Shown here in pieces: positions 37,274 to 55,976 of a stretch of 64,000 nt of DNA; the stretch's first letter is position 1; every line of letters begins with the position of its first letter. The translations under genes and the position numbers were made by a program. Source of the DNA: Sphingomonadales bacterium 12-68-11 (lineage in GTDB: Bacteria; Pseudomonadota; Alphaproteobacteria; Sphingomonadales; Sphingomonadaceae); assembly GCA_002279825.1 (NCBI GenBank), contig NCCV01000003.1:310001-374000 (forward strand), read 5' to 3'. The notes beneath the pieces were generated by a model. That model ran no database searches. It was not told the origin of the DNA and saw only the letters and a list, made by a program, of their open reading frames with translations.

Positions 37274-39238
37274 ATGCGCAAGTTCTGGGCCGCGGCGGTA
37301 AGCGCGGCGTTGGTGTCGACCTCGGTGCAGGCCCAGCAGGCGGCCTCGCTGCAGCCCCGGCCCGACGACTGGCCGCGTTACGCGCGCGACCTCCAGGGAA
37401 CGCGCTTCTCGCCGCTCGACCAGATCAACACCGGCAACGTCGGCCAGCTCAAGGAGGCGTGGAGCTTCCGGCTGAGGCCCGAGGGCGGCGCCGGCATCCT
37501 TGGCGGCACGGTTCCGATCGTGGTCGACGGTATCATGTACCTGCCGCTGGGCAATGCCATCGTCGCGCTCGACCCGACCAACGGGACCGAACTGTGGCGC
37601 CACCGGCTGGCGAGCGGCATCGCCCGCCGGACGGTCAGCTATTGGCCGGGTGACGGGACGCTGAAGCCGCGCCTGTTCTATTCGACTGGCAGCACGCTGG
37701 TGGCGATCCAGGCCGCCAACGGCGAGATCGACCCCGCGTTCGGCGAGAACGGCGTGATGCAGATCGACGGCACGCCCTATTCCTACCCGCCGAGCGTGTT
37801 CAAAAACGTGCTGGTGATCGGCGCCAGCAACGCCGAGATGTCGCGCGGCCCCAATGGCAACACTCGCGCTTACGACGCGCGCACCGGGCGCAAGCTATGG
37901 GAGTTCAACTCGGTCCCGCAGCCGGGCGAGGTCGGCCACGAGACCTGGCTAGACGACGGGTGGAAGGACCGCTCGGGCACCAACATGTGGATCTGGTACA
38001 TCACCGCCGATCCCGACACCGACACGCTGTACATCACTATCGGCAGCCCCTCGCCCAACTATTACGGCGGCGACCGGCCGGGTGCGAACCTGTTCGGCAA
38101 TTCGATCGTCGCGCTCGACGCCCAGACCGGCAAGCACAAGTGGCACTTCCAGACGATCCACCACGATCTGTGGGATTGGGACCTGCCCGCCCCGCCCACC
38201 CTGCTCGATGTCACGGTAAACGGGCGCAAGATCCCGGCGCTCGCCGAGACCGGCAAGCCGGGCCTCATGTACATCCTCAACCGCGAGACCGGCGAGCCGA
38301 TCCACGGCGTCGAGGAACGTCCGGTGGCGAAGGGGGACGTGCCGGGCGAGTGGTACAGCCCGACCCAACCGTTCCCGGTCAAGCCCGAGCAGCTCAACCG
38401 CGGCGTGTGGACTCCCGAGGACGTGGTGACCGCCGCCGACACCACGCCCGAACATGTCGCCGCCTGCCGCAAGCTGCTCGATTCCTACGGCGGCACGTTC
38501 TTCAACCAGGGCAGCTTCACGCCGTTCTTCCTCCACACCCCGGGCGATACACCCAAGGCCTCGATCAACATGCCGCACAACGGCGGTTCGGTGTGGGGCG
38601 GCAGCGCCGCCGATCCGCGCCGCGGGATCGTCTATGTCAACACCAGCGAGAGCGGTTCGATCGGGTGGATCGAAAAGCGCACCGCCGACGGCGACTACGG
38701 GCGCGGCACCGCCGGCTCGACGCAGCTTTACGACCGCGGCAGCCTGTCAGGACCGGGCGCCTATTCGTCGTTCTCCGCGCCGCAGGGCGGCTATGACGCG
38801 AACAACCGGCCGGTCGGGCCGAGCCTGCCGTGCATCCGTCCGCCGTGGGGCCGGTTGCTGGCGGTCGATGCCAACTCGGGCGAAATCCTGTGGGCAAGCA
38901 AGCTGGGCCTGACCGAGAGCCTGCCTGCGGGCAAGCAGGACACCGGGAGCAACAACGCCTCGGGCGGTGCCACCGTTACCGCCGGCGGGCTGGTGTTCAT
39001 CGGCGCAACCGGCGACGGCTTTTTCCGCGCTTTCGGCGCCAGCGACGGCAAGCTGCTGTGGCAGACCAAGCTGACCTATCCTGCGATGACCTTGCCGATC
39101 AGCTATCGCGGCAAGGACGGAAAGCAGTATATTGCGGTGGTCGCGGTCGGTTCCGGTCTTGGCGGGCCCGGCCCGCGCGGAGCGGACGGGCGGCCGCTCA
39201 ACGAGGAATCGGTGATCGCCTGGGCCCTGCCGAACTGA
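37274..39238 (+). CDS. Periplasmic PQQ quinoprotein dehydrogenase 1 (glucose/quinate DH-like)
   Basis: A 654-residue eight-bladed propeller quinoprotein with a signal peptide (about 1-21, ending SVQAQ). Repeated W-docking motifs (ALDPTNGTELWRH, AYDARTGRKLWEF, ALDAQTGKHKWHF) and the segment WHFQTIHHDLWDWDLP match the PQQ-GDH/quinate dehydrogenase group, whose catalytic Asp lies here. It lacks the membrane helices of true GDH and has no haem motif, so electrons must pass to a separate cytochrome. The substrate is an alcohol or sugar-like compound, not identifiable. It opens the quinoprotein cluster. Confidence 0.9.
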   Translation: MRKFWAAAVSAALVSTSVQAQQAASLQPRPDDWPRYARDLQGTRFSPLDQINTGNVGQLKEAWSFRLRPEGGAGILGGTVPIVVDGIMYLPLGNAIVALDPTNGTELWRHRLASGIARRTVSYWPGDGTLKPRLFYSTGSTLVAIQAANGEIDPAFGENGVMQIDGTPYSYPPSVFKNVLVIGASNAEMSRGPNGNTRAYDARTGRKLWEFNSVPQPGEVGHETWLDDGWKDRSGTNMWIWYITADPDTDTLYITIGSPSPNYYGGDRPGANLFGNSIVALDAQTGKHKWHFQTIHHDLWDWDLPAPPTLLDVTVNGRKIPALAETGKPGLMYILNRETGEPIHGVEERPVAKGDVPGEWYSPTQPFPVKPEQLNRGVWTPEDVVTAADTTPEHVAACRKLLDSYGGTFFNQGSFTPFFLHTPGDTPKASINMPHNGGSVWGGSAADPRRGIVYVNTSESGSIGWIEKRTADGDYGRGTAGSTQLYDRGSLSGPGAYSSFSAPQGGYDANNRPVGPSLPCIRPPWGRLLAVDANSGEILWASKLGLTESLPAGKQDTGSNNASGGATVTAGGLVFIGATGDGFFRAFGASDGKLLWQTKLTYPAMTLPISYRGKDGKQYIAVVAVGSGLGGPGPRGADGRPLNEESVIAWALPN

Positions 39239-39300
39239 ACGGGTCCAACCAAGAGGCCCGACTGGGCCCCGAACGAGACGCAACCGTGGAGAGACGTGCC

Positions 39301-40296
39301 ATGAACCGAATCAAGATCGCCGTCGCGGCGGGCCTGCTGGGAACGGCCGGCGCCGTCTATGCGCAGACCATCACGACTCCGGAAGGCGCGCGCATGACCG
39401 CGGCGACCGACCTCGCTTACAAGCCCGGTCAGTTGACCCCGGCGCAGTTAAACGCGTCAATGCGCGATTCCTTTTCGCAGAACTCCATGAACGTGTTCCG
39501 GCGCTTTCCGCGCGAAGACACCGCCACGATGGTCAAGTTTTACGTCGATGCACTCGGTCTGCGTTCGCTGCAGCCAATCCAGCTGACTTCTAGCCAGCAG
39601 ATGATTCTGACGGGCGTCGGCAGCGGGCAAATCAAGCTCTCGGCCGGCCAGGGCGGCAGTCGCAAGTACAACCTCGAAGGCGGTTACAAAGCCGGCACCG
39701 GTATCCGGTTCTTTGCCCTGACCTACCCCGATGCGAACGCGGTGCGCCAGCGCTTCACTGCGGCGGGCTTCCCCGCGCCGCAGTTCACCGATCAGGGGAA
39801 CGGCACCCAGTCGGCGGTGGTCAAAGACCCAGGCGGTTTCGACATCCAGATCACGATCAAACCGGGCGCAAAGGACGGTTCAAACGACGGGGTAGGTGTC
39901 GGTATCGGCACGTCCGACCTTGCGAAGAGCCGCGCATTCTACCGCGAGTTCGTCGGCCTTGACGAGCGGCCGGCCATTCAAGACCGCGTGCTTGGCCTGA
40001 CGCTCTATCCCTATCGCCACAACGAGACGACGCTCTATCTCTACGAAACGGGCACGAACCGGACCGTCGATAACGGCAGCGCGGGTATCCAGTACGTGGT
40101 GCGCGACGCCCCCCTTGCCGATGCGCGCGCCAAGCACCGCGGCGGAATCGCCGTCGAAACCCCGCTCAACAAGCTGGGTGGGTTCGACCTCGTCACCGTG
40201 TGGCTGAACGATCCCGACGGGGTCACCAACTACTTCGCGCAAGTGGGCCCGAGCAGCCGCACCGCACAGCAAGCCCGCGCCGGCGGGGGCAACTGA
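39301..40296 (+). CDS. Secreted two-domain VOC (glyoxalase/dioxygenase-fold) protein
   Basis: A 331-residue protein with a clear signal peptide (MNRIKIAVAAGLLGTAGAVYAQ) and two vicinal-oxygen-chelate modules, about residues 60-185 (MVKFYVDALGLRSLQP, AVVKDPGGFDIQITI) and 195-320 (GIGTSDLAKSRAFYREFVGL, VTVWLNDPDGVTNYF). VOC enzymes are usually cytoplasmic, so export is odd. Metal ligands cannot be assigned with confidence, and the protein may bind rather than turn over its ligand. It lies 62 bases after quinoprotein 1. Confidence 0.82.
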   Translation: MNRIKIAVAAGLLGTAGAVYAQTITTPEGARMTAATDLAYKPGQLTPAQLNASMRDSFSQNSMNVFRRFPREDTATMVKFYVDALGLRSLQPIQLTSSQQMILTGVGSGQIKLSAGQGGSRKYNLEGGYKAGTGIRFFALTYPDANAVRQRFTAAGFPAPQFTDQGNGTQSAVVKDPGGFDIQITIKPGAKDGSNDGVGVGIGTSDLAKSRAFYREFVGLDERPAIQDRVLGLTLYPYRHNETTLYLYETGTNRTVDNGSAGIQYVVRDAPLADARAKHRGGIAVETPLNKLGGFDLVTVWLNDPDGVTNYFAQVGPSSRTAQQARAGGGN

Positions 40297-40303
40297 CGCC
40301 GCG

Positions 40304-40338
40304 GCGAACTTCCCCGGGCCGACTCCGGGGAGGTTCGC
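40304..40338. terminator. Strong hairpin between converging VOC and cytochrome c genes
   Basis: GCGAACTTCCCCGG and CCGGGGAGGTTCGC pair over 14 positions with one mismatch around GCCGACT. It lies exactly between the two converging stop codons and probably ends both transcripts. Confidence 0.65.
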
Positions 40339-40344
40339 CCGCGG

Positions 40345-40704
40345 TTACTTCTTCACCTGGACGATGTAGTCGGCGATGAGGTCGATATCGGCGGGATCGA
40401 GCCAGCCGAAGCCGGGCATCGGGCCGGAGCCATTGGTCACCCGATCGACCACGAAGGCCTTGTCGAGATTGGCATTGCCGTCGAGCGCCGGCCCGACCGC
40501 ACCGGCCGCTTCGGCATCGGCGAGCAGATGGCAGGCATTGCAGCCGTTTTCGTTGAACAGGCCCCGTGCCTTGTCCACCTGCTCGGCGGTCAGTTCCACC
40601 GGCGCGTCCTGCGCGACCGCGAAAGCGCCGGCAGCGGGCAGCCCGATGGCGGCGGTAGCAAGCGCGGCGACGGCAAACTTGGCGCGGACGGACTTGGCAA
40701 TCAT
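40345..40704 (-). CDS. Periplasmic class I cytochrome c
   Basis: A 119-residue monohaem cytochrome with signal peptide (to about residue 32). The haem site is CNACH (C55, C58, H59), and a likely axial Met lies in GPMPGFGW. AAGAVGPALDGNANLDKAF and YIVQVKK complete the class I fold. It is the natural electron acceptor for the neighbouring quinoproteins, which lack haem. The ATG at 40704 has AAAGGT upstream and is preferred to 40755. Confidence 0.88.
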   Translation of the reverse strand: MIAKSVRAKFAVAALATAAIGLPAAGAFAVAQDAPVELTAEQVDKARGLFNENGCNACHLLADAEAAGAVGPALDGNANLDKAFVVDRVTNGSGPMPGFGWLDPADIDLIADYIVQVKK

Positions 40705-40899
40705 CTTGTTACCTTTCACAGTGGCTCCGCCAGCGCGGATAAGGCCATCGGTCAAGTCCCGGCCCTAAAGCGTGCCAGCTTTACCGCAGATTTACATGGT
40801 CCCTTTGTTTCGGACAAAGTCAATTTGCAAGCGGAAAACATGCGTCGACGATCCGCTTTCGCGCTGGACGCTATCCCTCGCCGATCGCCATGTCTCGGT

Positions 40900-40916: not shown

Positions 40917-40997
40917 GGTAATTAACTCGGCAGACCGCTCACCGGCGGTCAAGGATGCGGCCAAAGCGCGGCGCCCGCCGTTCGTGGGAGAGAAACC

Positions 40998-41474
40998 TTG
41001 AAAAGAGCCAGCGCGTTCATCCTGTCCACTCTGCTGCTCGGCGCCTGCGGCAGCGACGTCACGCCCGAATTGACGGCGCAGCAGCTTATGGCGCAGCGGG
41101 TCCAGCCGACCGCCGAGATCTATTGGGATGCGGTGCGTTACGAAAGCGTGCTGGAAAACGGCGAACCGGTCCAGCGCGACATCGAGCCGCAGACCGACGC
41201 GGACTGGAAAAAGGTGCAGGACGCCGCCATCGAGCTCGGCAAGCTCGGCGAGCTGCTCAAGACCCCGGGCTATACCGATGGCCGCGGCGACGACTGGACC
41301 ACTTTCGCTCAGGCGCTCGTCGACGTCAGCAAACGCGCCGAGGCCGCGGCTGCCGCCAAGGATCCCGCGGCCGTGTTCGAGGTCGGCGGGACCGTCTACA
41401 GCGTCTGCACGGCCTGCCACGGGGTCTATCCGCCTGCCGCCGGGACCGGCACGGAAGCGGCGCCCGGCGCCTGA
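40998..41474 (+). CDS. c-type cytochrome lipoprotein, cytochrome c556/c'-like
   Basis: A 158-residue protein with a lipoprotein signal (STLLLGAC, Cys17) and a C-terminal haem motif CTACH (C137, C140, H141). A helical body with one haem near the C terminus is the layout of cytochrome c'/c556. It should sit on the periplasmic face of a membrane. The start is TTG with GGGAGAG upstream. It heads a three-gene unit with the HupE-like and anchored proteins that follow. Confidence 0.8.
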   Translation: MKRASAFILSTLLLGACGSDVTPELTAQQLMAQRVQPTAEIYWDAVRYESVLENGEPVQRDIEPQTDADWKKVQDAAIELGKLGELLKTPGYTDGRGDDWTTFAQALVDVSKRAEAAAAAKDPAAVFEVGGTVYSVCTACHGVYPPAAGTGTEAAPGA

Positions 41475-41479
41475 TTGCG

Positions 41480-42199
41480 GTGCCTGACCGCCTGCCCTCG
41501 TGGCTCGTGCAGCGCCGCGCGTTGGCGATCGCGGCCGCGATCGCGTTCGTCTTGGTGTGGATCGAGGGATCGGCCGCCTGGGCGCACGACATTTCGCAGG
41601 CTGATCGCGCCGCGGTACAGCGCATCGAGGGGCCGGCGCCCTTCGCATTCCTGTACCTCGGTGCCAAGCACATGGTCACCGGCATCGACCACGTGCTATT
41701 CCTGATCGGGGTGGTGTTCTTCCTCTATCGCCTGCGCGACGTAGTGATCTACGTCTCGCTGTTCACGCTCGGCCATTCGCTGACGCTGCTCGGCGGCGTG
41801 CTGTTCGATACCGGCGCCAATGCCTTTATCGTCGATGCGATCATCGGCTTCTCGGTGGTCTATAAGGCGTTCGAGAACCTCGGCGGCTTCCGCAAGCTGG
41901 GCTTGGCGATAGACACCCGGCTGGCGGTGCTGGTGTTCGGGCTGTTCCACGGCCTCGGCCTCGCCACTAAAGTCCGCGACTTGGGGCTGTCGGAAGACGG
42001 CCTGTTGGTGAACCTGGTCTCGTTCAATGTCGGGGTTGAAGTCGGACAGGTCCTGGTCCTCGCGGTGGTCGTCACACTGTTCAACCTCTGGCGTCCGACG
42101 CGCTCGTTCGCGGCCGGCGCCTTCTATGCCAACCTGGCCCTGATGACGGGCGGTATCGTCCTCATGGGCTATCAACTGACAGGATACCTGACATCATGA
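41480..42199 (+). CDS. HupE/UreJ-like membrane protein
   Basis: A 239-residue protein with N-terminal signal (to SAAWAHD) and about six helices. The motif KHMVTGIDHVLFLIG matches HxxxGxDHxLF of the HupE/UreJ family, whose members are nickel or metal permeases or of unknown role; FGLFHGLGLA is the second conserved loop. The start GTG at 41480 is inferred from frame and signal sequence. The ATGA overlap links it to the next gene. Metal transport is possible but not shown. Confidence 0.82.
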   Translation: MPDRLPSWLVQRRALAIAAAIAFVLVWIEGSAAWAHDISQADRAAVQRIEGPAPFAFLYLGAKHMVTGIDHVLFLIGVVFFLYRLRDVVIYVSLFTLGHSLTLLGGVLFDTGANAFIVDAIIGFSVVYKAFENLGGFRKLGLAIDTRLAVLVFGLFHGLGLATKVRDLGLSEDGLLVNLVSFNVGVEVGQVLVLAVVVTLFNLWRPTRSFAAGAFYANLALMTGGIVLMGYQLTGYLTS

Positions 42200-42936
42200 C
42201 CGAACCCCAGATCACCCCGCCATCCGCAACGTCGAGCCGGAAGCTGCTGATCGGATCGGGCGTCGCCGTGGCGGTCGCGGGCGCCGCCCTGGTCGCCTTC
42301 GTGCTGCCGGCCGAATACGGCATTGATCCGACCGGGATCGGGACCGCGCTCGGCGTGACCAAGCTGTCCGAGCCTGCCGAGTCCGACGAAGTGCGCCGCG
42401 GCAAGCTGCGCACCAACGTGCTGCTCCCACTCGACGCCGCGACCGAGCCGACCGAGGCGACGCTGACTGCCACGCTGGCGGACAAGAGCATCCCCCTGCC
42501 CGCCGGGGTAACGCTGGTCGGCGATCGCTATACGATCGAGCTGCCGCCGTTCGAGAGCATCGAGATGAAGTACGAACTGGCGCAGGGCGCGCCGATGATC
42601 TTCCGGTGGAGCGCCACCGATACGGTCAATGTCGACATGCATTCGCACCCGTACGACGGCGGCACCGAACTGACCGAGACTTTCGCGCTGACCGACACGC
42701 CGGGGCAGTCCGGGGTTTACGTCGCGCCGTTTACCGGCATCCACGGCTGGTACTGGCAGAACCGCACGCTCGATCCGGTGACCGTGACGGTGGATGCACT
42801 GGGCGCGATGACCAAGTCGATGACGTTCGACAAGGCGGGCGAGCACCCCCGCGCGATGACCCCCGCCGCCGCGCCCAGAGAACCGGCCGCGCCCGCCCCC
42901 GAAGTCGCCGCACCGAGCGAGGCGCCGACCGGATAG
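42196..42936 (+). CDS. Membrane-anchored periplasmic protein
   Basis: A 246-residue protein with a short cytoplasmic start, one helix at about residues 17-36 (LLIGSGVAVAVAGAALVAFV), and a periplasmic part with beta-like segments (NVDMHSHPYDGGTE, HGWYWQNRTLDPVTVTV). The His-rich MHSHPY patch and the GWYWQN stretch are notable and might bind metal or haem. The last 35 residues are Ala/Pro-rich. Related proteins are annotated only as transmembrane anchors. It overlaps the HupE-like gene. Confidence 0.72.
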   Translation: MTEPQITPPSATSSRKLLIGSGVAVAVAGAALVAFVLPAEYGIDPTGIGTALGVTKLSEPAESDEVRRGKLRTNVLLPLDAATEPTEATLTATLADKSIPLPAGVTLVGDRYTIELPPFESIEMKYELAQGAPMIFRWSATDTVNVDMHSHPYDGGTELTETFALTDTPGQSGVYVAPFTGIHGWYWQNRTLDPVTVTVDALGAMTKSMTFDKAGEHPRAMTPAAAPREPAAPAPEVAAPSEAPTG

Positions 42937-43044
42937 AGTCAATTTGCGACAGTTTGCACCCTTGTTGACTCGCGCGCTCCTCGGCTAGGCTTTCCCGTGG
43001 TCGCGCCAGCAACGGCGGACACAGAGAGACCGGGGAGTCTGGGA

Positions 43045-45027
43045 GTGGATCGTTTGCCGCGTGCCTTTTCGTCTTATCGCCTTGCCGCGCTGATCGGCCG
43101 GCCGCTGGTCGCCGTATCGCTTGCGGCGCTCGCCTCGGCTTGCGCTACGGCGCAGGACCGGGCCGCGCCCGCCACGGCGTCTGCGACGGCTTCCGCCCCG
43201 CTGCCGCGCGAGGCTTTCGACTACAAGGGGTGGGACGCCTATCTCGGCGGCGTCGACAGTGCGCAGTTCTCGGCGCTGACGCAGATCAACAAGGACAACG
43301 TCAAGCAACTGCAGGTCGCGTGGGAGTATCCCACCGGCCAGGGCCAGCCCACCGCGTTCAACCCAATCGTCGTTCACGGCATCATGTATGTCACCAGCGG
43401 CGACGGCAAGATCGTCGCGCTCGATCCGGCCACCGGCCGCGAGCTGTGGAAGAGCGAGACCACCGGCCGGATCAGCGGGCGCGGAGTCAACTACTGGCAG
43501 AGCGCCGACGGTGCCGATCGGCGGCTGGTGTTCCTCAACGACGGGCTGGTGCGCGCCATCGACGCGCGCACGGGCAAGTATATCCCGAACTTCAGCATCG
43601 ATTTGCGCGAAGCGCTGCCCGAAGGCCATGCACCGACCGCGCGGCCGCTGATGACCAACAATCCGGGCCGCATCTTCGAGGATACCTACATCGTTTCGCT
43701 GCCCGCGGGCGCCTACGACTACGCTTCGGCCCCGGCCGACATCCAGGCCTACGACATCCGTACCGGGGCACTGAAGTGGGTGTTCAACGTGGTGCCGCGC
43801 GTCGGCGAGTTCGGCTCCGATACCTGGCCGGAGAAGGACCGCGAGAAGTTCGGCGGGGTCCACAACTGGTCGGAGTTCACGATCGATCCCGAACTGGGCA
43901 TCGCCTACATCCCGACCGGCACCGCGCGCTACGACTTCTACGGCGGCAACCGGCCGGGCGACAACCTGTTCGCCAACTCGATCGTCGCGCTCGACGCGCG
44001 CACCGGCAAGCGGGTGTGGCATTTCCAGACCATCCACCACGACTTGTGGGACATGGACCTTCCCAACGCGCCCAAGCTGATGACCATCACCAAGGACGGC
44101 AAGAAGATCCCGGTGGTGATCGTCGCTGCCAAGCACGGTTTCGTGTTCGTGTTCGATCGCCGCACCGGCGAACCGGTGTGGCCGATCGAGGAGCGCCCGG
44201 TGCCCGCCTCGGACGTTCCGGGCGAGCGAGCTTCGCCGACCCAGCCGTTCCCGACCTGGCCGTTGCCGTTCGCGCGCCAGTCGTTCACCGAGGCCGATAT
44301 CAACCCCCTGCTGCCCGAGGCCGATCAGGCGGCGCTGCGCGAAAAGCTGCGCGGCAGCCGCAACGAAGGGCTGTTCACCCCGCCGAGCGTGCGCGGGTCG
44401 GTCCACATGCCCGGCCACAACGGCGGCGTGAACTTCGGCAACAGCGCGGTCGATCCGCTCAACCAGAGGTTCTTCGTGGTCAGCCGCGAAATCCCGGTGA
44501 TCATCAAGCTCAACGAGATTCCTGAAGCTCGGCTGGCTACCGCCCGGGCCGCCATGCCCAACGGCAGCGCGGAGACTTATCCCTATACTTCGCCGGTCGA
44601 TTTCATGCTCCAGCCGAACGGCATGGTGGCCATCAAGCCGCCGTTCTCGTTCCTCACCGCCTACGACATGAACACCGGCAACATCCTGTACCGGATCGCC
44701 AATGGCGAGAGCTTGGCGACCCAGGCGCAAGGCCTCACCGACATCGGCTCGCAGGCCCCGCGCGGCGGGCCGGTTGCCACCGCCAGTGGGCTGCTGTTCG
44801 TCGGCACGGCGGGCGATCGCACCTTCCGGGCGCGCGACGCGGCCACGGGCACGGTCCTGTGGGAGCACAAGTTCGACGCGGCAACCGAGGGCGTACCCGC
44901 CATCTACGAGGTGAATGGCCGGCAATACATCACCCTGCCGGTCGGCGGTGACGGTCTATTCGCCCAGCGCGGCAACCCCGCCCCCGGCCCCAGCCGCTAC
45001 GTAACCTTCGCGCTTCCCGCGCGCTGA
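43045..45027 (+). CDS. PQQ quinoprotein dehydrogenase 2, lipoprotein-like signal
   Basis: A 660-residue quinoprotein. The signal ends LASACATAQD, a plausible lipobox, so it may be lipid-anchored. Propeller motifs (ALDPATGRELWKSE, ALDARTGKRVWHF) and WHFQTIHHDLWDMDLP place it with the glucose/quinate DH-like group, and HMPGHNGGVNFGNSAVDP marks the C-terminal blades. No haem motif is present. The GTG at 43045 has GGGGAG upstream; a GTG at 42997 is possible. It heads a unit with two secreted unknown proteins. Confidence 0.88.
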   Translation: MDRLPRAFSSYRLAALIGRPLVAVSLAALASACATAQDRAAPATASATASAPLPREAFDYKGWDAYLGGVDSAQFSALTQINKDNVKQLQVAWEYPTGQGQPTAFNPIVVHGIMYVTSGDGKIVALDPATGRELWKSETTGRISGRGVNYWQSADGADRRLVFLNDGLVRAIDARTGKYIPNFSIDLREALPEGHAPTARPLMTNNPGRIFEDTYIVSLPAGAYDYASAPADIQAYDIRTGALKWVFNVVPRVGEFGSDTWPEKDREKFGGVHNWSEFTIDPELGIAYIPTGTARYDFYGGNRPGDNLFANSIVALDARTGKRVWHFQTIHHDLWDMDLPNAPKLMTITKDGKKIPVVIVAAKHGFVFVFDRRTGEPVWPIEERPVPASDVPGERASPTQPFPTWPLPFARQSFTEADINPLLPEADQAALREKLRGSRNEGLFTPPSVRGSVHMPGHNGGVNFGNSAVDPLNQRFFVVSREIPVIIKLNEIPEARLATARAAMPNGSAETYPYTSPVDFMLQPNGMVAIKPPFSFLTAYDMNTGNILYRIANGESLATQAQGLTDIGSQAPRGGPVATASGLLFVGTAGDRTFRARDAATGTVLWEHKFDAATEGVPAIYEVNGRQYITLPVGGDGLFAQRGNPAPGPSRYVTFALPAR

Positions 45028-47240: not shown

Positions 47241-48983
47241 ATGACCATCGCCAGAAAAATCCGCTACGCCGTGGCCGGCGCGCTGCTGGCCACATCGTCG
47301 CTCGCCGTCCAGGCGCAGAGCGTCACCGACACCGTGCGCACCCAGCAGGGTGAGATCCGCGGTACCGCCGGCAAGCAGCCGGGCGTGCGGGTGTTTAAGA
47401 ACATCCCGTTCGCAGCCGCTCCGGTCGGCAAGCTGCGTTGGCAGCCGGCGCAGGCGCCGACCGCCTGGCAAGGGGTGCGTGATGGGACCAAGTACGGCCA
47501 CGTCTGCATGCAGAATCCGGCCCCGCAGCGCTTTCCGCCGAACGGCGCGACCGATACGCCGAACTTCACCGGGATGAGCGAGGATTGCCTCAACCTCAAC
47601 ATCTGGACCCCCGCCAAGACCGCAGGCGAGAAGCTGCCGGTGATGGTCTGGCTCTACGGCGGCGCCTATAACGAAGGCGGCGGCAACGCGCCCTTCAGCG
47701 AAGGCGACAACCTCGCCGCCAAGGGCGTGGTCATGGTCACGTTCAACTACCGCGTTGGCAACCTCGGGTTCTTCTCGCACCCCGAACTGACCGCCGAAGG
47801 CGGCGGCGCGGCGGGCAACCAGGGGCTCAGCGACGCGATCGCCGCGTTCAAGTGGCTCAAGGCCAATGTCGCGACGTTCGGCGGCGATCCCAACAACATC
47901 ACGCTGTTCGGCGAGAGCGCCGGCGCGGCTATGAACGGCGGGCTCGTCGGCGCGGCCGGCGCGCGCGGCACGTTCGAGCGGGCCATCGCGCAGAGCGGCG
48001 CGTGGATGGGACTGGGCATCGGCACGATGCTGCCGAACCACGTTCCCGGCGCCACGCTTCCCCCGCCGCCTCCGCCGCCCCCCGCGGGCCAGGCCCCGGC
48101 CGGCGGGCCCGGTGGCGGTGGCGGGCCCGGCGGCGGCTTCGGCCCGCAGCCGCCCTCGGCCGAACTGCGCGGTCTCGCCGCGGCGCGCCGCGCCGGCGCC
48201 GAGACACTCGCGGCGCTGCGTGCGCTGCCCGCGGAGCAAGCCCAGCGGCTCGGTGGCCAGGGGATGATCATCGACGGCAAGATCATCACCGAGGACCTGT
48301 CGAAGACATTCGCGGCTGGGCGCCAGAACCCGGTCGATGTGATCGCCGGCTCGAACGCCGACGAGGGTTCGTTCACCGCCGGCGCGCCGGCGACGCTCGA
48401 GTCCTGGACCCGCGGCGAGCGCGGTCGCTGGGGCGACCTGGTCGAACTCGGTCGCGCCGCCTATCCCGCGAGCACCGACGCCGAGGCGGCCGCCAACGCG
48501 CCGATGCCGTTCTCGGACACCCTCGCTTGGCACATGCGGCTGTTCGCCGACCAGCAGGCCAAGATCGGCAAGAACGCCTGGCACTACTGGTTCATGCACG
48601 CCCCGGCCTATGACGAAGGGGTCCCGAACCTGGGCGCGGGCCATACCGTCGAAATCCCCTACGCGTTCGACAACCTCGCGGCACCGCGCACTTATCCGGC
48701 CGGCAGCTCGGTCCGGCAGATGGCGGGTAACCCGCGCGAGGAAGCGCTCGCGGATCAGGTCTCGCAGTATTGGGTCAACTTCGCCCGCACCGGCAACCCG
48801 AACGGGCCCGGCCTGCCGAAGTGGCCTTCGATGCGCGAGCTCGGGCCGACCGAAACGATGCGGCTCGATGCCGACAACAAGTCGGGCAAGGGTCCGTGGC
48901 TGACCGCACCTAAAGTCGCGCTCTACAAGGCGCTGTACAACGAGCGCGTAGCCAAGACGCTGAGCATCCCGCCGGCACCGTAG
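47241..48983 (+). CDS. Secreted type-B carboxylesterase
   Basis: A 580-residue alpha/beta hydrolase with signal peptide (ending LAVQAQ). The nucleophile is S226 in LFGESAGAAMNGG; EDCLNLNIWTP and the oxyanion region WLYGGAYNEGG are typical of type-B carboxylesterases. Glu in SNADEGSF and His in GAGHTVEIPYAFDN complete the triad. Between about residues 275 and 310 is an insert of eight prolines followed by glycine runs, probably a flexible linker. It would hydrolyse an ester in the periplasm, releasing an alcohol for the quinoproteins. Confidence 0.9.
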   Translation: MTIARKIRYAVAGALLATSSLAVQAQSVTDTVRTQQGEIRGTAGKQPGVRVFKNIPFAAAPVGKLRWQPAQAPTAWQGVRDGTKYGHVCMQNPAPQRFPPNGATDTPNFTGMSEDCLNLNIWTPAKTAGEKLPVMVWLYGGAYNEGGGNAPFSEGDNLAAKGVVMVTFNYRVGNLGFFSHPELTAEGGGAAGNQGLSDAIAAFKWLKANVATFGGDPNNITLFGESAGAAMNGGLVGAAGARGTFERAIAQSGAWMGLGIGTMLPNHVPGATLPPPPPPPPAGQAPAGGPGGGGGPGGGFGPQPPSAELRGLAAARRAGAETLAALRALPAEQAQRLGGQGMIIDGKIITEDLSKTFAAGRQNPVDVIAGSNADEGSFTAGAPATLESWTRGERGRWGDLVELGRAAYPASTDAEAAANAPMPFSDTLAWHMRLFADQQAKIGKNAWHYWFMHAPAYDEGVPNLGAGHTVEIPYAFDNLAAPRTYPAGSSVRQMAGNPREEALADQVSQYWVNFARTGNPNGPGLPKWPSMRELGPTETMRLDADNKSGKGPWLTAPKVALYKALYNERVAKTLSIPPAP

Positions 48984-49096: not shown

Positions 49097-51217
49097 ATGG
49101 GGACATTGACGACGGCGGCGCTGTCGCTCGGGGCGGCTACGCTGGCCTTGGCCAGTTTCGGAGCCGGGTCGGGCGCGATGGCGCAAGCGGCGCCAAGCTT
49201 CGCCGCGCAAGTCGAGGCCGGCCGCACCGCCTACGCGCAGAACTGCGCCTCCTGCCACGGCGCGGCGCTGAACGACGGCCAGTTCGCCCCCGGTCTCAAG
49301 GGTCCGGGCTTCCTCGCCAAGTGGGGCCGGCAGCCGCTCGCCGACCTGGACCGCTACATCCGCGCCTCGATGCCGCCGGGCACGGCGGGGCGGCTGCCCG
49401 ATGCGAGTTACGCCGCGCTGGCGGCTCTGATCCTCAGCGAGAACGGCGGCGCTGCGACGGTCGCCCTGTCCGCCGATCGCGCTGCTCTGGCGGCGCTCAC
49501 CTTGCCCGCGGCGCCGGCGCTGGCGCGCCGGGAGTCCGCCGTGGGGGGCCTGTCTACCCGGCTATACCCGCTGCCGCCGGGGCCGGTGCTGCCCGATCGG
49601 TTCGCCGGCTTCACGCCGGTCACGCAAGCGGAGCTAGCCGATCCCGCGCCCGAGGACTGGCCGGCCTGGCGCCGCAGCCACCTCGGGCTCGGCTATTCCC
49701 CGCTCGACGAGATCACCACCGCCAACGTCGACCGGCTGCGGATTGCCTGGGCACAGGCCCTGCCCGCCGGGGTCAATATGAACGAGCCGCTGGTGCGGGG
49801 CGGCGTGCTCTACGTGTTCGGCTTCGGCGACCAGGTGTTCGCCTTCGACGCCGCGAGCGGACGGCAACTGTGGCGCTACGAGCGCAAGCTGCCGCAAGGC
49901 ACCGCCGCCAATTCCAAGAAGACGATCGCGCTCTATGGCGACAAGCTCTACGCGGCGACTTCGGACAACCATTTGGTCGCGCTCGATGCCCGCACCGGCC
50001 GCCCGGTCTGGGACGTGGCGATCACCGACCGACCCGGGATGCGCAATCCGGGCGGACCGCTGGTCGCAGACGGCGTGGTGATGCAGGGCCTGACCACCAC
50101 CGTGGCCGGAGGCGGCCTCATCGCCGCGTTCGACGCCGAGACCGGCCGCCACCTATGGACGTTCGAAACCGTCGCCAAGGACGGCCAGCTCGGCGGCGAC
50201 ACCTGGAACGGGCAGCCCAGCGCGGAACGCAAGGGCGGCTCGGTCTGGACCTCGGGCAGTTACGACCCGGTCAACAAGCTGGCGCTGTGGGGCGTGGGCA
50301 ACACCTACGACACCGCCCCGCTGCGCGATCTCAAGCCGGGCCTCAACAACGACGCGCTGTTCATGGAAAGCACGCTGGCGTTCGAACCGCGCACCGGCAG
50401 GCTGGTCTGGTACTACCAGCACAACCGCAACGACCAGTACGACCTCGACTGGGTGTTCGACCGCACCGTCGGCACGCTTGAGATCGACGGACGCCCACGC
50501 CGCGTGGTCATCACCGGCGGCAAGAGCGGCTTGTTCGACGCCCTCGACGCCGCGACCGGGCGCTATCTCAAGACCGTCGACATGGGCATCCAGGACTACA
50601 TCGACTTCATCGATCCGGTGACCGGCGACAAGCGCGTCAAGGCGGGGATGGAGCCGGGCCGCGACAAGGGGCCGGTGTTCATGTGCCCGCATGGCGGGGG
50701 CGGGCGCAACTGGAGCCCGACCTCCTACATCGAAGCGAGCCAGACGCTTTTCGTGACCGCGCGTGACGTCTGCACCGACCTCACGCCTTCGACCAGCGGC
50801 GGGCTGCTCACCACCGGGGTCAATGCGGTCTATGCGGCGCCGCCGAACGGCGACGGCAATTACGGCGTGCTCCAGGCCATCGACATGCGCAGCGGCCGGA
50901 TCCTGTGGGAGACCCGCAACCGCCAGACCCCCGACATGGGCGTGCTGACCACTGCCGGCGGGGTGCTGTTCACCGGCTGGATGGACCGCCAGTTCGTCGC
51001 CTACGATCAGAGCACCGGCAAAGAGCTGTGGCGCACCGGCGTGACCGGCATCCCCAACGCCTCGGCGATCACGTACGCGGTCGACGGCAAGCAATACGTC
51101 GCGATTGTGACCGGGGCCGGCAATCCGCTGTCGCTAGGCATTCCCGACGTGATCCCGGAGACGCAGCTGCCCTCGGTCAACAGCTCGGCGGTCTACGTCT
51201 TCGCCCTGCCCGACTGA
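49097..51217 (+). CDS. Quinohaemoprotein: N-terminal cytochrome c fused to PQQ propeller
   Basis: A 706-residue protein. After a signal peptide (to about residue 30) comes a cytochrome c domain with CASCH (C50, C53, H54) and likely axial Met92 in RASMPPGT. The PQQ propeller follows from about residue 185 (PAWRRSHLGLGYSPLDEITT, AFDAASGRQLWRYE, AYDQSTGKELWRT). Haem at the N terminus differs from type II alcohol dehydrogenases, where it is C-terminal, and recalls polyvinyl alcohol dehydrogenase. WYYQHNRNDQYDLDW replaces the HHD segment of its cluster mates, so it belongs to another quinoprotein branch. Confidence 0.9.
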   Translation: MGTLTTAALSLGAATLALASFGAGSGAMAQAAPSFAAQVEAGRTAYAQNCASCHGAALNDGQFAPGLKGPGFLAKWGRQPLADLDRYIRASMPPGTAGRLPDASYAALAALILSENGGAATVALSADRAALAALTLPAAPALARRESAVGGLSTRLYPLPPGPVLPDRFAGFTPVTQAELADPAPEDWPAWRRSHLGLGYSPLDEITTANVDRLRIAWAQALPAGVNMNEPLVRGGVLYVFGFGDQVFAFDAASGRQLWRYERKLPQGTAANSKKTIALYGDKLYAATSDNHLVALDARTGRPVWDVAITDRPGMRNPGGPLVADGVVMQGLTTTVAGGGLIAAFDAETGRHLWTFETVAKDGQLGGDTWNGQPSAERKGGSVWTSGSYDPVNKLALWGVGNTYDTAPLRDLKPGLNNDALFMESTLAFEPRTGRLVWYYQHNRNDQYDLDWVFDRTVGTLEIDGRPRRVVITGGKSGLFDALDAATGRYLKTVDMGIQDYIDFIDPVTGDKRVKAGMEPGRDKGPVFMCPHGGGGRNWSPTSYIEASQTLFVTARDVCTDLTPSTSGGLLTTGVNAVYAAPPNGDGNYGVLQAIDMRSGRILWETRNRQTPDMGVLTTAGGVLFTGWMDRQFVAYDQSTGKELWRTGVTGIPNASAITYAVDGKQYVAIVTGAGNPLSLGIPDVIPETQLPSVNSSAVYVFALPD

Positions 51218-51227
51218 CAACCAAAAA

Positions 51228-51251
51228 GGGCCGCCTCTCGCGAGGCGGCCC
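51228..51251 (-). terminator. Rho-independent terminator between quinoprotein 3 and the DUF6644 pair
   Basis: GGGCCGCCTC-TCGC-GAGGCGGCCC forms a 10-bp GC-rich stem. On the minus strand it is followed by TTTTT, a classic terminator for the membrane protein genes reading leftward. The stem can also stop the plus-strand transcript. Confidence 0.85.
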
Positions 51252-51274
51252 CGAATATGGCGCAAGCGCGTGCG

Positions 51275-51784
51275 CTAGCCGTCGAAGATGCCGAGCGTGA
51301 ACCCGATCGCGCGGCCGAAGAACAGTACCGCGATCCACAGGATCAGCGACAGACCGCCGGCCAGCTTGACCTTGAGCGGCAGGGGGCCGGTATCCCATTG
51401 GCCGATCGTCCGTGACGTCACGAAGTGGAAGAACAGCATGTTCAGCCCGGCACCGGCCATCGCGGCGCCCTTCCACAGGAAGTACGGGTTGGCCATGTAG
51501 CTGCTCGCCTTGCTGACGAACAGCAGGGTGCCGGTTATCGCGGCCAGCACGAACGCGCCCCAGACCCACGGCAACGTGTCCTTCTCGAGCCGCGAGATCG
51601 GAAACTGGCGGTTCGCAAGGCCGACCAGGCGCAGATCGACAATGGCGATCATGCCGAACACGGTAACCAGCGCGACCACGTGGATCGATTCAAAAGTCGG
51701 GAACATCCAGGTGGACTCGGCGATTCTGATGCCGAGGTCGGAGTACTCGATCCGCTCCCAGATATTGGTTGGTTCAGGATACAT
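51275..51784 (-). CDS. DUF6644-like membrane protein 1
   Basis: A 169-residue protein with four hydrophobic helices at about residues 33-55, 73-92, 100-120 and 141-160. TWMFPTFESIHVVALVTVFG has a His inside the first helix and MLFFHFVTSRTIGQW one in the third; paired His residues in helices could bind haem b, but this is a guess. It lies 13 bases downstream of a related gene and ends at a strong terminator. Function unknown; position suggests a membrane electron-transfer role for the cluster. Confidence 0.75.
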   Translation of the reverse strand: MYPEPTNIWERIEYSDLGIRIAESTWMFPTFESIHVVALVTVFGMIAIVDLRLVGLANRQFPISRLEKDTLPWVWGAFVLAAITGTLLFVSKASSYMANPYFLWKGAAMAGAGLNMLFFHFVTSRTIGQWDTGPLPLKVKLAGGLSLILWIAVLFFGRAIGFTLGIFDG

Positions 51785-51797
51785 CGAAGAGACCCCC

Positions 51798-52322
51798 TTA
51801 GACCGGCGCGTAGGCGATCCAGCGACCGCAGAACATGATCAGGATCCACAGGACGATAAGCAGCAGGACACTCGCCTTACCGCCCGCACCCAGTTCGTCG
51901 TTGGGACCGATCCGGAGCAGGATCCCGCGGCTGAACGCCACGGTGAACAGCACCGCGAACAGCAGCAGCCCCATCTTGATCCAGAAGAATGGATTGATCA
52001 GCTCGCGGATCGGCTCGGCAACGATCATCAGCGAACCCGACAGGACCAGCACAAGGAGAGACCACCACAGCACCTTGAGATAGCGCCGCGACGTCTCGAG
52101 CATCGTGCCGCTGCCGGCGAAGCCGAACATGCGCGCGTTGATCATCAGGATCGAGGAGAACGACGCGGCGATCGCAGCGATGTGGATGCACTGGATGATC
52201 GGGATCGACCAGAAGCGCGTCACCATCCACGCATTGAGCGAGGTTTCGTTCAGCCAGAACGTCACATCGATCAACGGTGTGGTGCGAAGCCACTCCGTGA
52301 AATCAAATAGTAATTGCTCCAT
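51798..52322 (-). CDS. DUF6644-like membrane protein 2
   Basis: A 174-residue protein built like the next gene downstream: an N-terminal amphipathic part (WLRTTPLIDVTFWLNET), then four helices, the first with IPIIQCIHIAAIAASFSSIL and its buried His. FFWIKMGLLLFAVLFTVAF and KASVLLLIVLWILIMFCGRW form the last two. The two proteins may form a complex. The gene diverges from quinoprotein 4 across the promoter region that has the GTAAC-N7-GTTAC element. Confidence 0.75.
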   Translation of the reverse strand: MEQLLFDFTEWLRTTPLIDVTFWLNETSLNAWMVTRFWSIPIIQCIHIAAIAASFSSILMINARMFGFAGSGTMLETSRRYLKVLWWSLLVLVLSGSLMIVAEPIRELINPFFWIKMGLLLFAVLFTVAFSRGILLRIGPNDELGAGGKASVLLLIVLWILIMFCGRWIAYAPV

Positions 52323-52652
52323 TACATCCTTCCCTGTTCAAGCGCCCCGCCTGCGTCGAAGACCCCTTGGGCGCTACGACGGGCCTTGCCGAGTAAAATA
52401 ACCGTAACCGCCCCGGTTACAGGCGTTACAGGCGATCCTTGCCTTACCCGTCGATCCGGGCGTTCGGCTAGCGCGGCCCAGCCGTTGCGCCAAGAGCCAT
52501 TCGGCCGCGAGCGCCCAAATAAGACATTTCGCGACAGTGCTGATACACGAACCGGCATTGTCAAATCCCCCCGTCGAACTTAGGGGACCAAGTCAACTGA
52601 GGCAGCGCGGTCCGCATTGATCCAGCGCAAATGCCGGTGGGAGGAGTGTCCG
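52323..52652. promoter_or_regulatory. Divergent promoter region with GTAAC-N7-GTTAC copy 2
   Basis: This 330-base gap has no convincing gene. At 52404-52420 GTAAC-CGCCCCG-GTTAC matches the element at 40900. It continues into a tandem 9-mer GTTACAGGC GTTACAGGC (52416-52433), a possible extra half-site. ATTTCGCGACAGTGC near 52528 resembles ATTTGCGACAGTTTGC upstream of quinoprotein 2. GGGAGGAG before 52653 is the ribosome binding site of quinoprotein 4. Confidence 0.5.
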
Positions 52653-54560
52653 ATGCGCGTCGCCGGGAGACTGTGGCTGTCAAGCGTGCTCGCGGTTACC
52701 GTGAGCGGCACGGCCGTGGCCCAGCAGGCCATTCCCGACGGCGACTGGCGGACGATCAACCGCGATGCCGGCGCGACCCGCTATTCGCCGCTGCGTGACA
52801 TAAACCGGACCAATGTCGGTCAGCTTACCGAAGCCTGGACCTATACCCTGCGCGCCAACAACAGCGCCGTGCCGCTGGTGATCGACAGCACGATGTACAT
52901 TTCGGCGGGCAACCGCGTGATCGCGCTCGATGCCGACAGCGGGCAGGAAAAGTGGGTCTATACCCTGCCCCCCAACCCGGCTCCGGCCGCCGGCGGCAAC
53001 GCCCCGCCGCGCAACGCGTCCGCGCGCGGGGTGAGCTACTGGCCGGGCGACGCCGCCACCCCTGCACGGATCCTGTTCACGGCGGGGACCAGCCTGGTGG
53101 CGATCGATGCCGCCAGCGGGCAGCCGGTGGCCGGTTTCGGCGAGGCGGGCTTCGTCAATATCCAGACCGGCTTCGGCGGCGTGCCGACGATCGCCGAAGA
53201 CGTCGCGATCCTCGGCGCCGCTACGCAGGAAAACCAGCCCGGCGATCCGGGCAATACGCGCGCCTTCGACGTGCGCACCGGCCGCAAGCTGTGGGAATTC
53301 AATTCGGTGCCGCAGCCTGGCGAGCTCGGCAACGAGACCTGGGGCAACGGCTGGAAAGGCCGCTCGGGTACCAACATGTGGGGGTTCATCGCTCCGGTCG
53401 ATCTGCAGCGCGGCATCGTCATCATCCCGCTCGGCTCGCCCGCGCCGAACTATTGGGGCGGCGAGCGGCCGGGCACGAACCTGTTCGGCAACTCGCTGCT
53501 CGCGCTCGACTACAAGACCGGGCAATACAAGTGGCACTTCCAGACCGTCCATCACGACATCTGGGACATCGACCAGTCGACGGCGGGCGCGCTGATCACG
53601 GTCAAGGGCCGGCCGGTCATCGCTTCGATCAACAAGAGCAGCCTGTTCTTCGTGATCGACCGCGAAACCGGCAAGCCGGCGTTGCCGGTCGAAGAGCGCC
53701 CGGTCCCGGCCGGCGACGTGCCGGGTGAGTACTACCACCCCACCCAGCCTTTCCCGGTCAATACCCCGCCGCTCAGCCGCGTGTCGCTGACCTACGACGA
53801 CATCGTCGATGCCGAAGACACCACGCCCGAACATGCGCGGGCGTGCCGCACGATGTGGGACAAGGCGGGCGGATACCTCAATTTCGGACCGTACACGCCG
53901 TTCATGTACAAGGCGCCGGGCGCGCCGCCGCGTTCGACCATTCAGCTTCCGGGCGGCACCGGCGGGGTCAACTGGGGCGGCCCCGCGGCCGACCCGACGA
54001 CCGGCATGGTCTACGTCAACGCGCAGGACACCTCGCTGGTCGGCTGGGTGGAGCGCAAGGAAACCACCGAAAGCTACAGCTTCGACGCCAACAGCTCTGA
54101 CCAGCCCTATGACCGCGCCAGCGTCGACGGCAAGGGCCCGTTCTTCTCGTTCACCGCGCCGATCTCCGGTCTCTATGACTCGCAGGGCCGCGCGCAGGGG
54201 CCGACCGCGCCATGCTATAAGCCGCCGTGGGGCGAACTCGTCGCGGTCGACGCCAATACCGGCGCGATCAAGTGGTCGGTGCCGCTCGGCATCATGGACT
54301 CGCTTCCTGAAGGCAAGCAACTGGTCGGCAATTCGGGCAGCGCCGGGCCGACCGTGACCGCCGGCGGACTAGTGTTCGTCGGCGCGACCAGCGACCGCCG
54401 ATTCCGCGCATTCGACGCGGCTACCGGGCAGCAGCTTTGGGAAGCCCAGCTTCGCGGCAACGCCAATGCCAATCCGATGAGCTATCGCGGGCGCAGCGGA
54501 AAACAGTATGTTGCCATCAATGCCGGTGGCGCAATCGTGACCTATTCGCTATCGCGCTGA
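52653..54560 (+). CDS. Periplasmic PQQ quinoprotein dehydrogenase 4
   Basis: A 635-residue quinoprotein with signal peptide (MRVAGRLWLSSVLAVTVSGT, then AVAQQ). Motifs ALDADSGQEKWVY, AFDVRTGRKLWEF, WHFQTVHHDIWDID and FDAATGQQLWEAQ put it with quinoproteins 1 and 2; NSVPQPGELGNETW and TPEHARACRTMWDKAGGY closely parallel quinoprotein 1. The Asp-Leu-Pro after the HHD segment is replaced by Asp-Gln-Ser. No haem motif. It is followed by a secreted unknown protein and a DUF6152 gene. Confidence 0.9.
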   Translation: MRVAGRLWLSSVLAVTVSGTAVAQQAIPDGDWRTINRDAGATRYSPLRDINRTNVGQLTEAWTYTLRANNSAVPLVIDSTMYISAGNRVIALDADSGQEKWVYTLPPNPAPAAGGNAPPRNASARGVSYWPGDAATPARILFTAGTSLVAIDAASGQPVAGFGEAGFVNIQTGFGGVPTIAEDVAILGAATQENQPGDPGNTRAFDVRTGRKLWEFNSVPQPGELGNETWGNGWKGRSGTNMWGFIAPVDLQRGIVIIPLGSPAPNYWGGERPGTNLFGNSLLALDYKTGQYKWHFQTVHHDIWDIDQSTAGALITVKGRPVIASINKSSLFFVIDRETGKPALPVEERPVPAGDVPGEYYHPTQPFPVNTPPLSRVSLTYDDIVDAEDTTPEHARACRTMWDKAGGYLNFGPYTPFMYKAPGAPPRSTIQLPGGTGGVNWGGPAADPTTGMVYVNAQDTSLVGWVERKETTESYSFDANSSDQPYDRASVDGKGPFFSFTAPISGLYDSQGRAQGPTAPCYKPPWGELVAVDANTGAIKWSVPLGIMDSLPEGKQLVGNSGSAGPTVTAGGLVFVGATSDRRFRAFDAATGQQLWEAQLRGNANANPMSYRGRSGKQYVAINAGGAIVTYSLSR

Positions 54561-54588
54561 AGGTTCCCAAAGAGAGAGGGTTTAGGGG

Positions 54589-55500
54589 ATGAACAAGTTT
54601 TCCATTCTGTCAGCCGCAGCGGCAGCAAGCCTGGTGGTAAGCCCGGTTGTCGCTCAGGCGCAGGCCGCGCGCCCCGCCGCCCAGCCGGCCCAGATCGACG
54701 GTAAGCCGAATCTCAACGGCATCTGGTTCTCGGCCAGCCGCGCCAACGACAACCTCGAGCCGCACAGCGCCTCGGGCTCGCCGATCCCGGCGGCCGAGCG
54801 GCTGATCGGCACGTTCGCGGCGACTCCCGCCGGCCTTGGCGTGATCGATGGCGACGGCAAGATCCCGTACAAGCCCGAAGCGCTCGCCAAGCTCCAGGAG
54901 CATCGCCAGAACCTGATCTCGTACGATCCGGAAGCGGCCTGCTATCTGCCCGGCATCCCGCGCGCGAGCTACATGGATTACCCGTTCCAAATCATCCAGG
55001 GCGGCGGCGGCGACGACATGCTCATGGTCTATGAGTATGCCAATGCCAACCGCGTGATCGAAATGCGCGATGTCGAAATCCCGCCGATCGATACCTGGAT
55101 GGGCACCTCGTTCGGCGAGTGGGAAGGCAATACGCTGGTCGTCCATACGCTGGCGCAGAGCCCCGGCGAGTACAAGGCGCCGCGCGGCGTGATGTTCGAA
55201 GGCGTGACCTGGCTCGACCGTACGGGCAACTACATCGCCAACACCACCACGGTGCACGAGCGGTTCACGTTGGTCGATCCGACGCATATCCAGTACACCG
55301 CGCGGATCGAAGACGAGAACCTGTTCACCCGTCCGTGGACGATCTCGATGACGCTCTACAAGAACGTCGAACCCAACGCCCAACTGCTTGAATTCCGTTG
55401 CGTCCCGTTCAGCGAGCTGATGCTATACGGCGACCTGTTGGAAAATACCGATCAACCGGCGGCGACGGCAACCCCGTCCAACGCCGCGGCGCCGGAATAA
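54589..55500 (+). CDS. Secreted protein of unknown function, PNLNGIW variant
   Basis: A 303-residue protein with signal peptide (ending VVAQAQ). It has DGKPNLNGIWFSASRAND, FGEWEGNTLVVHTL, VHERFTLVDPTHIQYTARIE and LFTRPWTISMTLYKN. These match in order the landmarks of the two proteins at 45039-47167, so it is a distant member of that family. It lies 28 bases after quinoprotein 4. Function unknown. Confidence 0.78.
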   Translation: MNKFSILSAAAAASLVVSPVVAQAQAARPAAQPAQIDGKPNLNGIWFSASRANDNLEPHSASGSPIPAAERLIGTFAATPAGLGVIDGDGKIPYKPEALAKLQEHRQNLISYDPEAACYLPGIPRASYMDYPFQIIQGGGGDDMLMVYEYANANRVIEMRDVEIPPIDTWMGTSFGEWEGNTLVVHTLAQSPGEYKAPRGVMFEGVTWLDRTGNYIANTTTVHERFTLVDPTHIQYTARIEDENLFTRPWTISMTLYKNVEPNAQLLEFRCVPFSELMLYGDLLENTDQPAATATPSNAAAPE

Positions 55501-55544
55501 CGATAACCAGACCCGCAAATGCAGAAGTCAAGGAGTACCGTGCC

Positions 55545-55976
55545 ATGCAAATGAAGAAGTGGACTGCCGCTGCCCTCGGCGCCGTCCTGGCGGCCGGCGT
55601 CGCCGGCGCTGCCTTCGCTCACCACTCGTTCGCGACTGAGTTCGACCGCACCAAGCCGGTTCGTCTTCAGGGCAAAGTCGTGAAGTTCGAGTGGGTCAAC
55701 CCGCACTCGTGGATCCACATCGACGCCACGATCAACGGCCGCGTGCAGCGCTGGCGCGTTGAAGGCGGCGCGCCGAGCGCGCTGCTGCGCCGCGGCTGGA
55801 ACCGGAACTCGCTGCCCGCGGGCACCGAGATCATCGTGGACGCGTTCCGTTCGCGTGACGGCGACACCCGCGCCTCGGCGGCGGAAATCCGCTTCCCCAA
55901 CGGCCGCGAGCTCTCGCTCGGCAACCCGACGACCGAAGCGGTCGCGGCAGCCGCTCGGCGCACGCAGGGCAACTGA
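55545..55976 (+). CDS. DUF6152 family periplasmic protein
   Basis: A 143-residue protein with signal peptide (to GAAFA) and the hallmark HHSFATEFD right after it, then VRLQGKVVKFEWVNPHSWIH and RWRVEGGAPSALLRRGW. The size, small beta-rich domain and conserved His pair fit DUF6152, often found beside PQQ genes. The His pair at the mature N terminus could bind a metal. AGGAGT precedes the ATG at 55545. Last gene of the quinoprotein block. Confidence 0.85.
   Translation: MQMKKWTAAALGAVLAAGVAGAAFAHHSFATEFDRTKPVRLQGKVVKFEWVNPHSWIHIDATINGRVQRWRVEGGAPSALLRRGWNRNSLPAGTEIIVDAFRSRDGDTRASAAEIRFPNGRELSLGNPTTEAVAAAARRTQGN

Follow-up and report, generated by a model that had tools for sequence, protein, structure and literature searches.

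A conserved cluster of exported quinoproteins in Sphingomonadaceae and its possible link to an aryl-ketone carboxylase operon

The polyvinyl alcohol (pva) system consists of a quinoprotein, a hydrolase and a cytochrome c. In Sphingopyxis, a sphingomonad like the host considered here, the pva operon comprises three genes (PMC4611681). A second described system is the hydroxyphenylethanone pathway, termed Hpe in Rhodococcus rhodochrous GD02 and Acv in Sphingobium SYK-6. According to the sections of the two reports consulted here (PMC9618137, PMC13101465), its gene set, hpeHICBAD or acvABCDEF, serves acetovanillone and 4-hydroxyacetophenone and encodes a two-component phosphoenolpyruvate-synthase-like kinase, a biotin carboxyl carrier protein (BCCP), a biotin carboxylase, a carboxyltransferase and a NagD-like phosphatase; those sections mention no periplasmic quinoprotein module. 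Many Gram-negative bacteria scavenge pyrroloquinoline quinone (PQQ), and the receptor PqqU is largely absent from Alphaproteobacteria (Munder et al., PMC12124388). Here we describe a cluster of 16 mostly exported genes at positions 37274-55976 (18.7 kb) of a 64,000-nucleotide stretch of DNA, the window (G000:C4:310001-374000), from the 2.87-Mb genome of Sphingomonadales bacterium 12-68-11. The block is one conserved unit with sharp edges and very probably encodes some form of pathway dedicated to oxidation in the periplasm. We propose, with confidence just short of even, that it would be a periplasmic upper pathway in which a phenolic alcohol, maybe released from an ester, is oxidized to a ketone for an Hpe/Acv-like route.

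The cluster runs in the order PQQ1, VOC, cytA, cytB, HupE, HupP, PQQ2, SU1, SU2, EST, cPQQ3, DUF6644a, DUF6644b, PQQ4, SU3 and DUF6152, with cytA and the DUF6644 pair on the reverse strand. Loci sharing these genes were sought by searching the contigs of GTDB genomes for SU1, so that the resulting counts describe conservation given SU1. At least 5 of the 16 families were present in 26 of the 28 loci found, in nearly perfectly collinear order, and 19 loci held at least 12; across the mapped loci, 335 of 335 gene copies lay on the expected strand. When seven relatives were compared over 40 kb, the block began at PQQ1, or at an extra upstream cPQQ-like gene that is missing in the window copy, and stopped at DUF6152, while the flanks varied and in one relative (G030) were completely unrelated. 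The number of SU genes differed from copy to copy. A first-pass annotation of the window had suggested one dedicated extracytoplasmic system, and this is supported because synteny of at least five families held so strongly. That the genes are unrelated neighbors by chance has practically no standing, since collinearity in 26 loci, full strand agreement and flanks that differ across genera outweigh the recurrence of several genes alone elsewhere, such as SU-DUF6152 pairs.

The features of the cluster are as follows.

37274-39238, plus strand: PQQ1, exported glucose-dehydrogenase (GDH)-type quinoprotein of 654 amino acids without a membrane anchor domain; PF01011, 4e-163; signal peptide
39301-40296, plus strand: VOC, exported two-module VOC protein; PF00903, 9e-14; signal peptide
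40345-40704, minus strand: cytA, small exported cytochrome c with CNACH; PF13442, 3e-11
40998-41474, plus strand: cytB, probable lipoprotein cytochrome; CTACH near the C terminus; lipobox-like LLLGAC; sub-threshold cytochrome c' match
41480-42199 (start approximate), plus strand: HupE/UreJ-like membrane protein (HupE_UreJ_2); PF13795, 3e-48
42196-42936, plus strand: HupP, periplasmic HupE partner with an N-terminal anchor (transmembrane segment); no family match
42997-45027 (start uncertain), plus strand: PQQ2, exported GDH-type quinoprotein; possible lipobox LASAC; PF01011, 1e-174
45039-46067, plus strand: SU1, secreted; no family match; predicted calycin-like barrel
46064-47167, plus strand: SU2, secreted paralog of SU1
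47241-48983, plus strand: EST, secreted type-B carboxylesterase with a Pro/Gly-rich insert; PF00135, 7e-92; GESAG motif
49097-51217, plus strand: cPQQ3, exported quinohemoprotein; N-terminal cytochrome c (PF13442, 7e-9) and propeller (PF01011, 1e-56)
51227-51252, minus strand: terminator-like hairpin of 11 pairs with a T tail, after the DUF6644 pair; consensus match only
51275-51784, minus strand: DUF6644a, four transmembrane segments, conserved His35; PF20349, 3e-7, 31.0 bits, above the cut-off
51798-52322, minus strand: DUF6644b, paralog with four transmembrane segments, His conserved; PF20349, 25.7 bits against a cut-off of 27
52653-54560, plus strand: PQQ4, exported GDH-type quinoprotein, 49% identical to PQQ1; PF01011, 1e-162
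54589-55500, plus strand: SU3, distant SU paralog (E 1.5e-7 from SU2)
55545-55976, plus strand: DUF6152, small exported protein; PF19649, 1e-32
56013-56046, plus strand: strong terminator-like hairpin of 15 pairs at the 3' edge of the cluster; consensus match only

Profile matches and motifs placed every gene named in the first-pass annotation where it had put it. The genes are closely packed, with the start of SU2 overlapping the stop of SU1 by 4 nucleotides. Terminator-like hairpins showed no significant excess over the whole region, and only position and stem length make the two listed suggestive. Export had been claimed for nearly every soluble product; by hydropathy and inspection rather than a dedicated signal-peptide predictor, all of them carry a signal peptide or a lipid or transmembrane anchor. 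About 11 open reading frames with PQQ-type propellers (one probably BamB) occur in the genome, and the presence of 4 of them within 18.7 kb amounts to an approximately 60-fold enrichment.

The secreted VOC protein was the most cluster-specific marker. Judged by its presence, the cluster, whole or reduced, occurred in 27 of 299 genomes of the family (9 of 96 genera), and in the class sample 2 of 289 genomes gave a match. The cluster-bearing relatives, more than 20 marine and soil bacteria, belong to Croceibacterium, Altererythrobacter, Alteraurantiacibacter, Aurantiacibacter and Erythrobacter and include a few metagenome-assembled genomes (MAGs). A plasmid origin was considered and rejected: VOC had no match in PLSDB, SU1 matches were weak and partial, and all plasmid matches to PQQ1 and cPQQ3 were below 60% identity, with different gene neighbors where inspected. 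Literature on DUF6152, DUF6644, sphingomonad and lignin quinoproteins and PQQ in Erythrobacteraceae yielded no published description of the cluster, in agreement with the initial impression that no described system has this set; the Novosphingobium pinoresinol cluster, examined as a published match, is a different system.

The cluster was observed to co-occur with an operon that has the same six parts as the Hpe/Acv gene set. Carboxyltransferase orthologs of at least 75% identity were present in all 27 VOC-positive genomes of the family and in 1 of 272 VOC-negative genomes; the sole exception (G597) is 78% complete and belongs to a VOC-positive genus, and ten further genomes held only a carboxyltransferase type that is about 50% identical. 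In the class sample, the same two genomes provided the only matches for both VOC and carboxyltransferase. Fisher's test gave P values of 1e-37 when genomes were counted and 8e-13 when genera were counted, both of which overstate the evidence because the carriers are largely one clade. Physical adjacency in four genomes provided independent support. In G445, the start of PQQ1 overlaps the stop of the NagD-like (hpeD-like) phosphatase gene, the last gene of an operon that encodes two kinase halves (alpha and beta), BCCP, biotin carboxylase, carboxyltransferase and the phosphatase. PQQ1 and VOC likewise follow the phosphatase gene in G504, of the same genus, an SU paralog stands directly before hpeH in G003, and a DUF6644 pair lies near the carboxylase operon in G030. 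Some Croceibacterium copies of the operon lack a called biotin carboxylase of their own. The copy of the window genome lies around G000:C5:155000-161000, within a segment (G000:C5:130000-169999; L092, L093) that includes an AraC regulator, and it adjoins genes for a methylmalonyl-coenzyme A (CoA) epimerase-like protein, methylmalonyl-CoA mutase, biotin synthase and propionyl-CoA carboxylase; these neighbors hint, speculatively, at a C3 side chain. The same segment also contains a quinohemoprotein with a C-terminal heme beside an SU-like gene, and a molybdopterin hydroxylase.

From these observations we infer a substrate class, a direction of flow, an electron route and roles for the SU and DUF6644 proteins. 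The substrate would be a hydrophobic phenolic compound, held or carried by the secreted calycin-like SU proteins; many species may receive it as an ester, which EST would open in an optional step. PQQ1, PQQ2, PQQ4 and the heme-fused cPQQ3, with PQQ scavenged from the environment, would oxidize one or more of its hydroxyls in the periplasm, and the electrons would pass to cytA and cytB and on to the respiratory chain, possibly by way of the two DUF6644 proteins. The oxidized product would most likely be an aryl ketone, which would enter the cytoplasm and there be phosphorylated, carboxylated and dephosphorylated by the distinct Hpe/Acv-type operon encoded elsewhere in the genome. In its most specific form, this proposal describes an undescribed front end of aryl-ketone catabolism with scavenged PQQ but no known PqqU, a new calycin family (SU), DUF6644 as a membrane electron acceptor and a distinct phospho-ketone carboxylase; we consider that complete combination rather unlikely.

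Several findings weigh against the proposed phenolic-alcohol pathway. The carriers fall mostly into one clade, the Erythrobacteraceae, with 9 genera and few independent events, and shared ancestry could account for the co-occurrence. In the window genome, the carboxylase operon and the cluster are unlinked, being on C5 and C4, respectively. The linked carboxyltransferase shares only some 50% identity with the second type present in the family, so its substrate may not be acetovanillone-like. The occupancy of the quinoproteins by PQQ is an assumption, and the similarity of SU to calycins is weak (best E 1.1e-3; TM score of about 0.5 on the target; partial). The strongest competing explanation, which we rate as possible but somewhat less probable than the proposed pathway, is that the periplasmic quinoproteins act on a different alcohol or ester (a terpenoid, steroid, polyol or mycotoxin-like compound) and that the aryl-ketone operon merely occurs in the same clade. 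Quinoproteins of these types act on many substrates, EST has PDB relatives that include pNB esterase and fumonisin B1 esterase, the SU fold resembles general hydrophobic-ligand carriers and the carriers of the cluster are phylogenetically clustered. This explanation does not account for the PQQ1-VOC, SU and DUF6644 homologs that adjoin the carboxylase operon in the four genomes, nor for the contrast between G447 (87% complete) and G052, members of one genus of which the former lacks both traits and the latter has both.

The quinoproteins themselves have intact PQQ active-site residues, and the propeller domains of all four score above the PF01011 cut-off. PQQ1, PQQ2 and PQQ4 are approximately 31% identical to Escherichia coli Gcd, and alignment to Gcd placed equivalents of W404 (the stacking Trp), D466 (the catalytic Asp) and K493 (the PQQ-binding Lys) in all four proteins. 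Unlike Gcd, these three GDH-type enzymes have no membrane-anchor domain; PQQ1, PQQ2 and PQQ4 scored 361 to 403 bits against TIGR03074 (membrane-bound GDH; cut-off, 833), with the N-terminal transmembrane domain absent. cPQQ3 falls in the ADH-IIG/sorbose dehydrogenase branch and gave the best score against TIGR03075 (methanol/ethanol dehydrogenase), 312.6 bits versus a cut-off of 480. In the methanol/ethanol branch, an Asp at position +2 from the catalytic Asp marks lanthanide enzymes. All four quinoproteins have this residue, which is not diagnostic for a lanthanide here because Gcd has the same Asp.

PqqC was found in none of the 30 cluster-bearing genomes tested (PqqA, PqqD and PqqE were not searched), and PqqB was found in none of 11; in a PQQ-making relative used as a positive control (G016), the PqqC and PqqB searches gave 382 and 391 bits. 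Judged from these gene contents, the hosts apparently cannot synthesize PQQ, and it would for that reason be scavenged from outside. The situation is that described for PqqU scavenging, in which quinoproteins occur in a nonproducer of PQQ (PMC12124388), except that a query with E. coli PqqU found no homolog in the window genome at E of ≤1e-15; it found one distant receptor in G003. The missing PqqB and PqqC and the lack of a PqqU-like receptor would also fit propellers that are empty or hold another cofactor, the cluster then having a role in binding, sensing or structure. All four quinoproteins, moreover, had sub-threshold scores against the NCBIfam "acido-empty-quinoprotein" group A (TIGR04528), but these scores (214 to 285 bits) are far under the cut-off of 650. 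The catalytic, stacking and PQQ-binding residues are conserved in all four, cytochromes are co-conserved and scavenging without synthesis is common (PMC12124388), and we regard empty propellers as improbable.

A polymer pathway akin to the pva operon is more improbable still. The sets are alike in combining a quinohemoprotein, a secreted hydrolase and a cytochrome, but 16 genes are present here versus three, and the pva operon, compared by description only, lacks the three GDH-type enzymes and the SU, VOC, HupE and DUF genes of the cluster.

The remaining families bear on the phenolic-alcohol pathway to different degrees. The first-pass annotation had grouped three related secreted proteins; SU1 and SU2 are indeed a close pair (51% identity), whereas SU3 is related only distantly (23 to 28%). 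No Pfam or NCBIfam family exceeded its cut-off for the SU proteins, and neither SU nor VOC had sequence relatives in the PDB. The AlphaFold model of SU1 (pLDDT 85) has a C-terminal barrel, the best PDB matches of which (CRABP II, fatty-acid-binding proteins, nitrophorin, NanoLuc and streptavidin) are all calycin-like; Foldseek matched it to CRABP II with a probability of 1.0 but an E value of 1.1e-3, covering only part of the protein. This modeled similarity is weak but consistent with binding of a hydrophobic ligand in a barrel of the fatty-acid/retinoid type. SU-type proteins are expanded in the genus of the window, with 11 to 19 matches per genome in the window genome and its genus relatives. 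Two small cytochromes had been proposed, and cytA is clear, its reverse orientation being kept in nearly all loci; cytB rests on a CxxCH that is conserved in 24 homologs and on a match below threshold. The presence of two cytochromes and a heme-fused quinoprotein is consistent with electron flow to cytochromes. As for the two proposed DUF6644-like proteins, the first was verified and the second fell just below the cut-off. DUF6644a is modeled as four membrane helices in a bundle (pLDDT 93); it has an invariant His, and its fold had no significant match. An electron-transfer role for it is a guess. DUF6152 is 48 to 87% identical across 11 homologs; its mature N terminus after the signal peptide is probably HHSF, conserved in the aligned homologs, and might possibly bind metal in this HupE-containing cluster.

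Reduced forms were also found. PQQ1-VOC-cytA occurred without the remainder of the cluster in G408 and G474, PQQ1-VOC alone occurred in G445 and G504, and SU1-SU-EST-SU3-DUF6152 occurred in a Euryhalocaulis MAG (L046). In G494, VOC and SU1 are naturally fused in a single open reading frame (L088:9563-11521, plus strand) beside PQQ1 and a TonB receptor. Because the reduced forms keep separate gene sets, the cluster looks to be assembled from two modules, one for oxidation (PQQ1-VOC-cytochrome) and one made up of SU and DUF6152. Moreover, the PQQ1-VOC(-cytochrome) forms have no esterase, which makes oxidation look central and ester opening an accessory step. Ester hydrolysis followed by alcohol oxidation, as originally suggested, may take place in the copies that have EST, which is present in most, but would not extend to these esterase-free forms. 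A plasmid of Croceibacterium atlanticum (L105:6847-11046) carries DUF6152-DUF6152-SU-TonB receptor, which suggests a recurrent partnership of SU with DUF6152 beyond the cluster. A Novosphingobium MAG copy lacks cytB-HupE-HupP and has, at their place between cytA and PQQ2, an exported protein with, by eye, a metallo-beta-lactamase fold (L039:4370-5446, plus strand).

Downstream of the cluster, on the minus strand at 56120-61964, is a convergent aromatic ring-cleavage operon that encodes a FAH-family hydrolase, a cupin, a DHPON-hydrolase-like alpha/beta hydrolase, an extradiol dioxygenase very close to PDB 3b59, a FAD monooxygenase and a LysR regulator. It was rejected as a part of the cluster: none of the seven relatives has it next to the cluster, and it is convergent and lies beyond the terminator-like hairpin.

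Together, these results raise a concrete question, namely, how four to five quinoproteins run in these Alphaproteobacteria without PQQ synthesis and without a recognizable PQQ receptor. The orphan families SU, DUF6152, DUF6644, the secreted VOC protein and the HupE partner gain a shared context that can be tested, and a candidate pathway and substrate class can be named for the cluster. Phenolic ketones and alcohols arise from lignin breakdown, and a periplasmic entry route for them would be of practical use.

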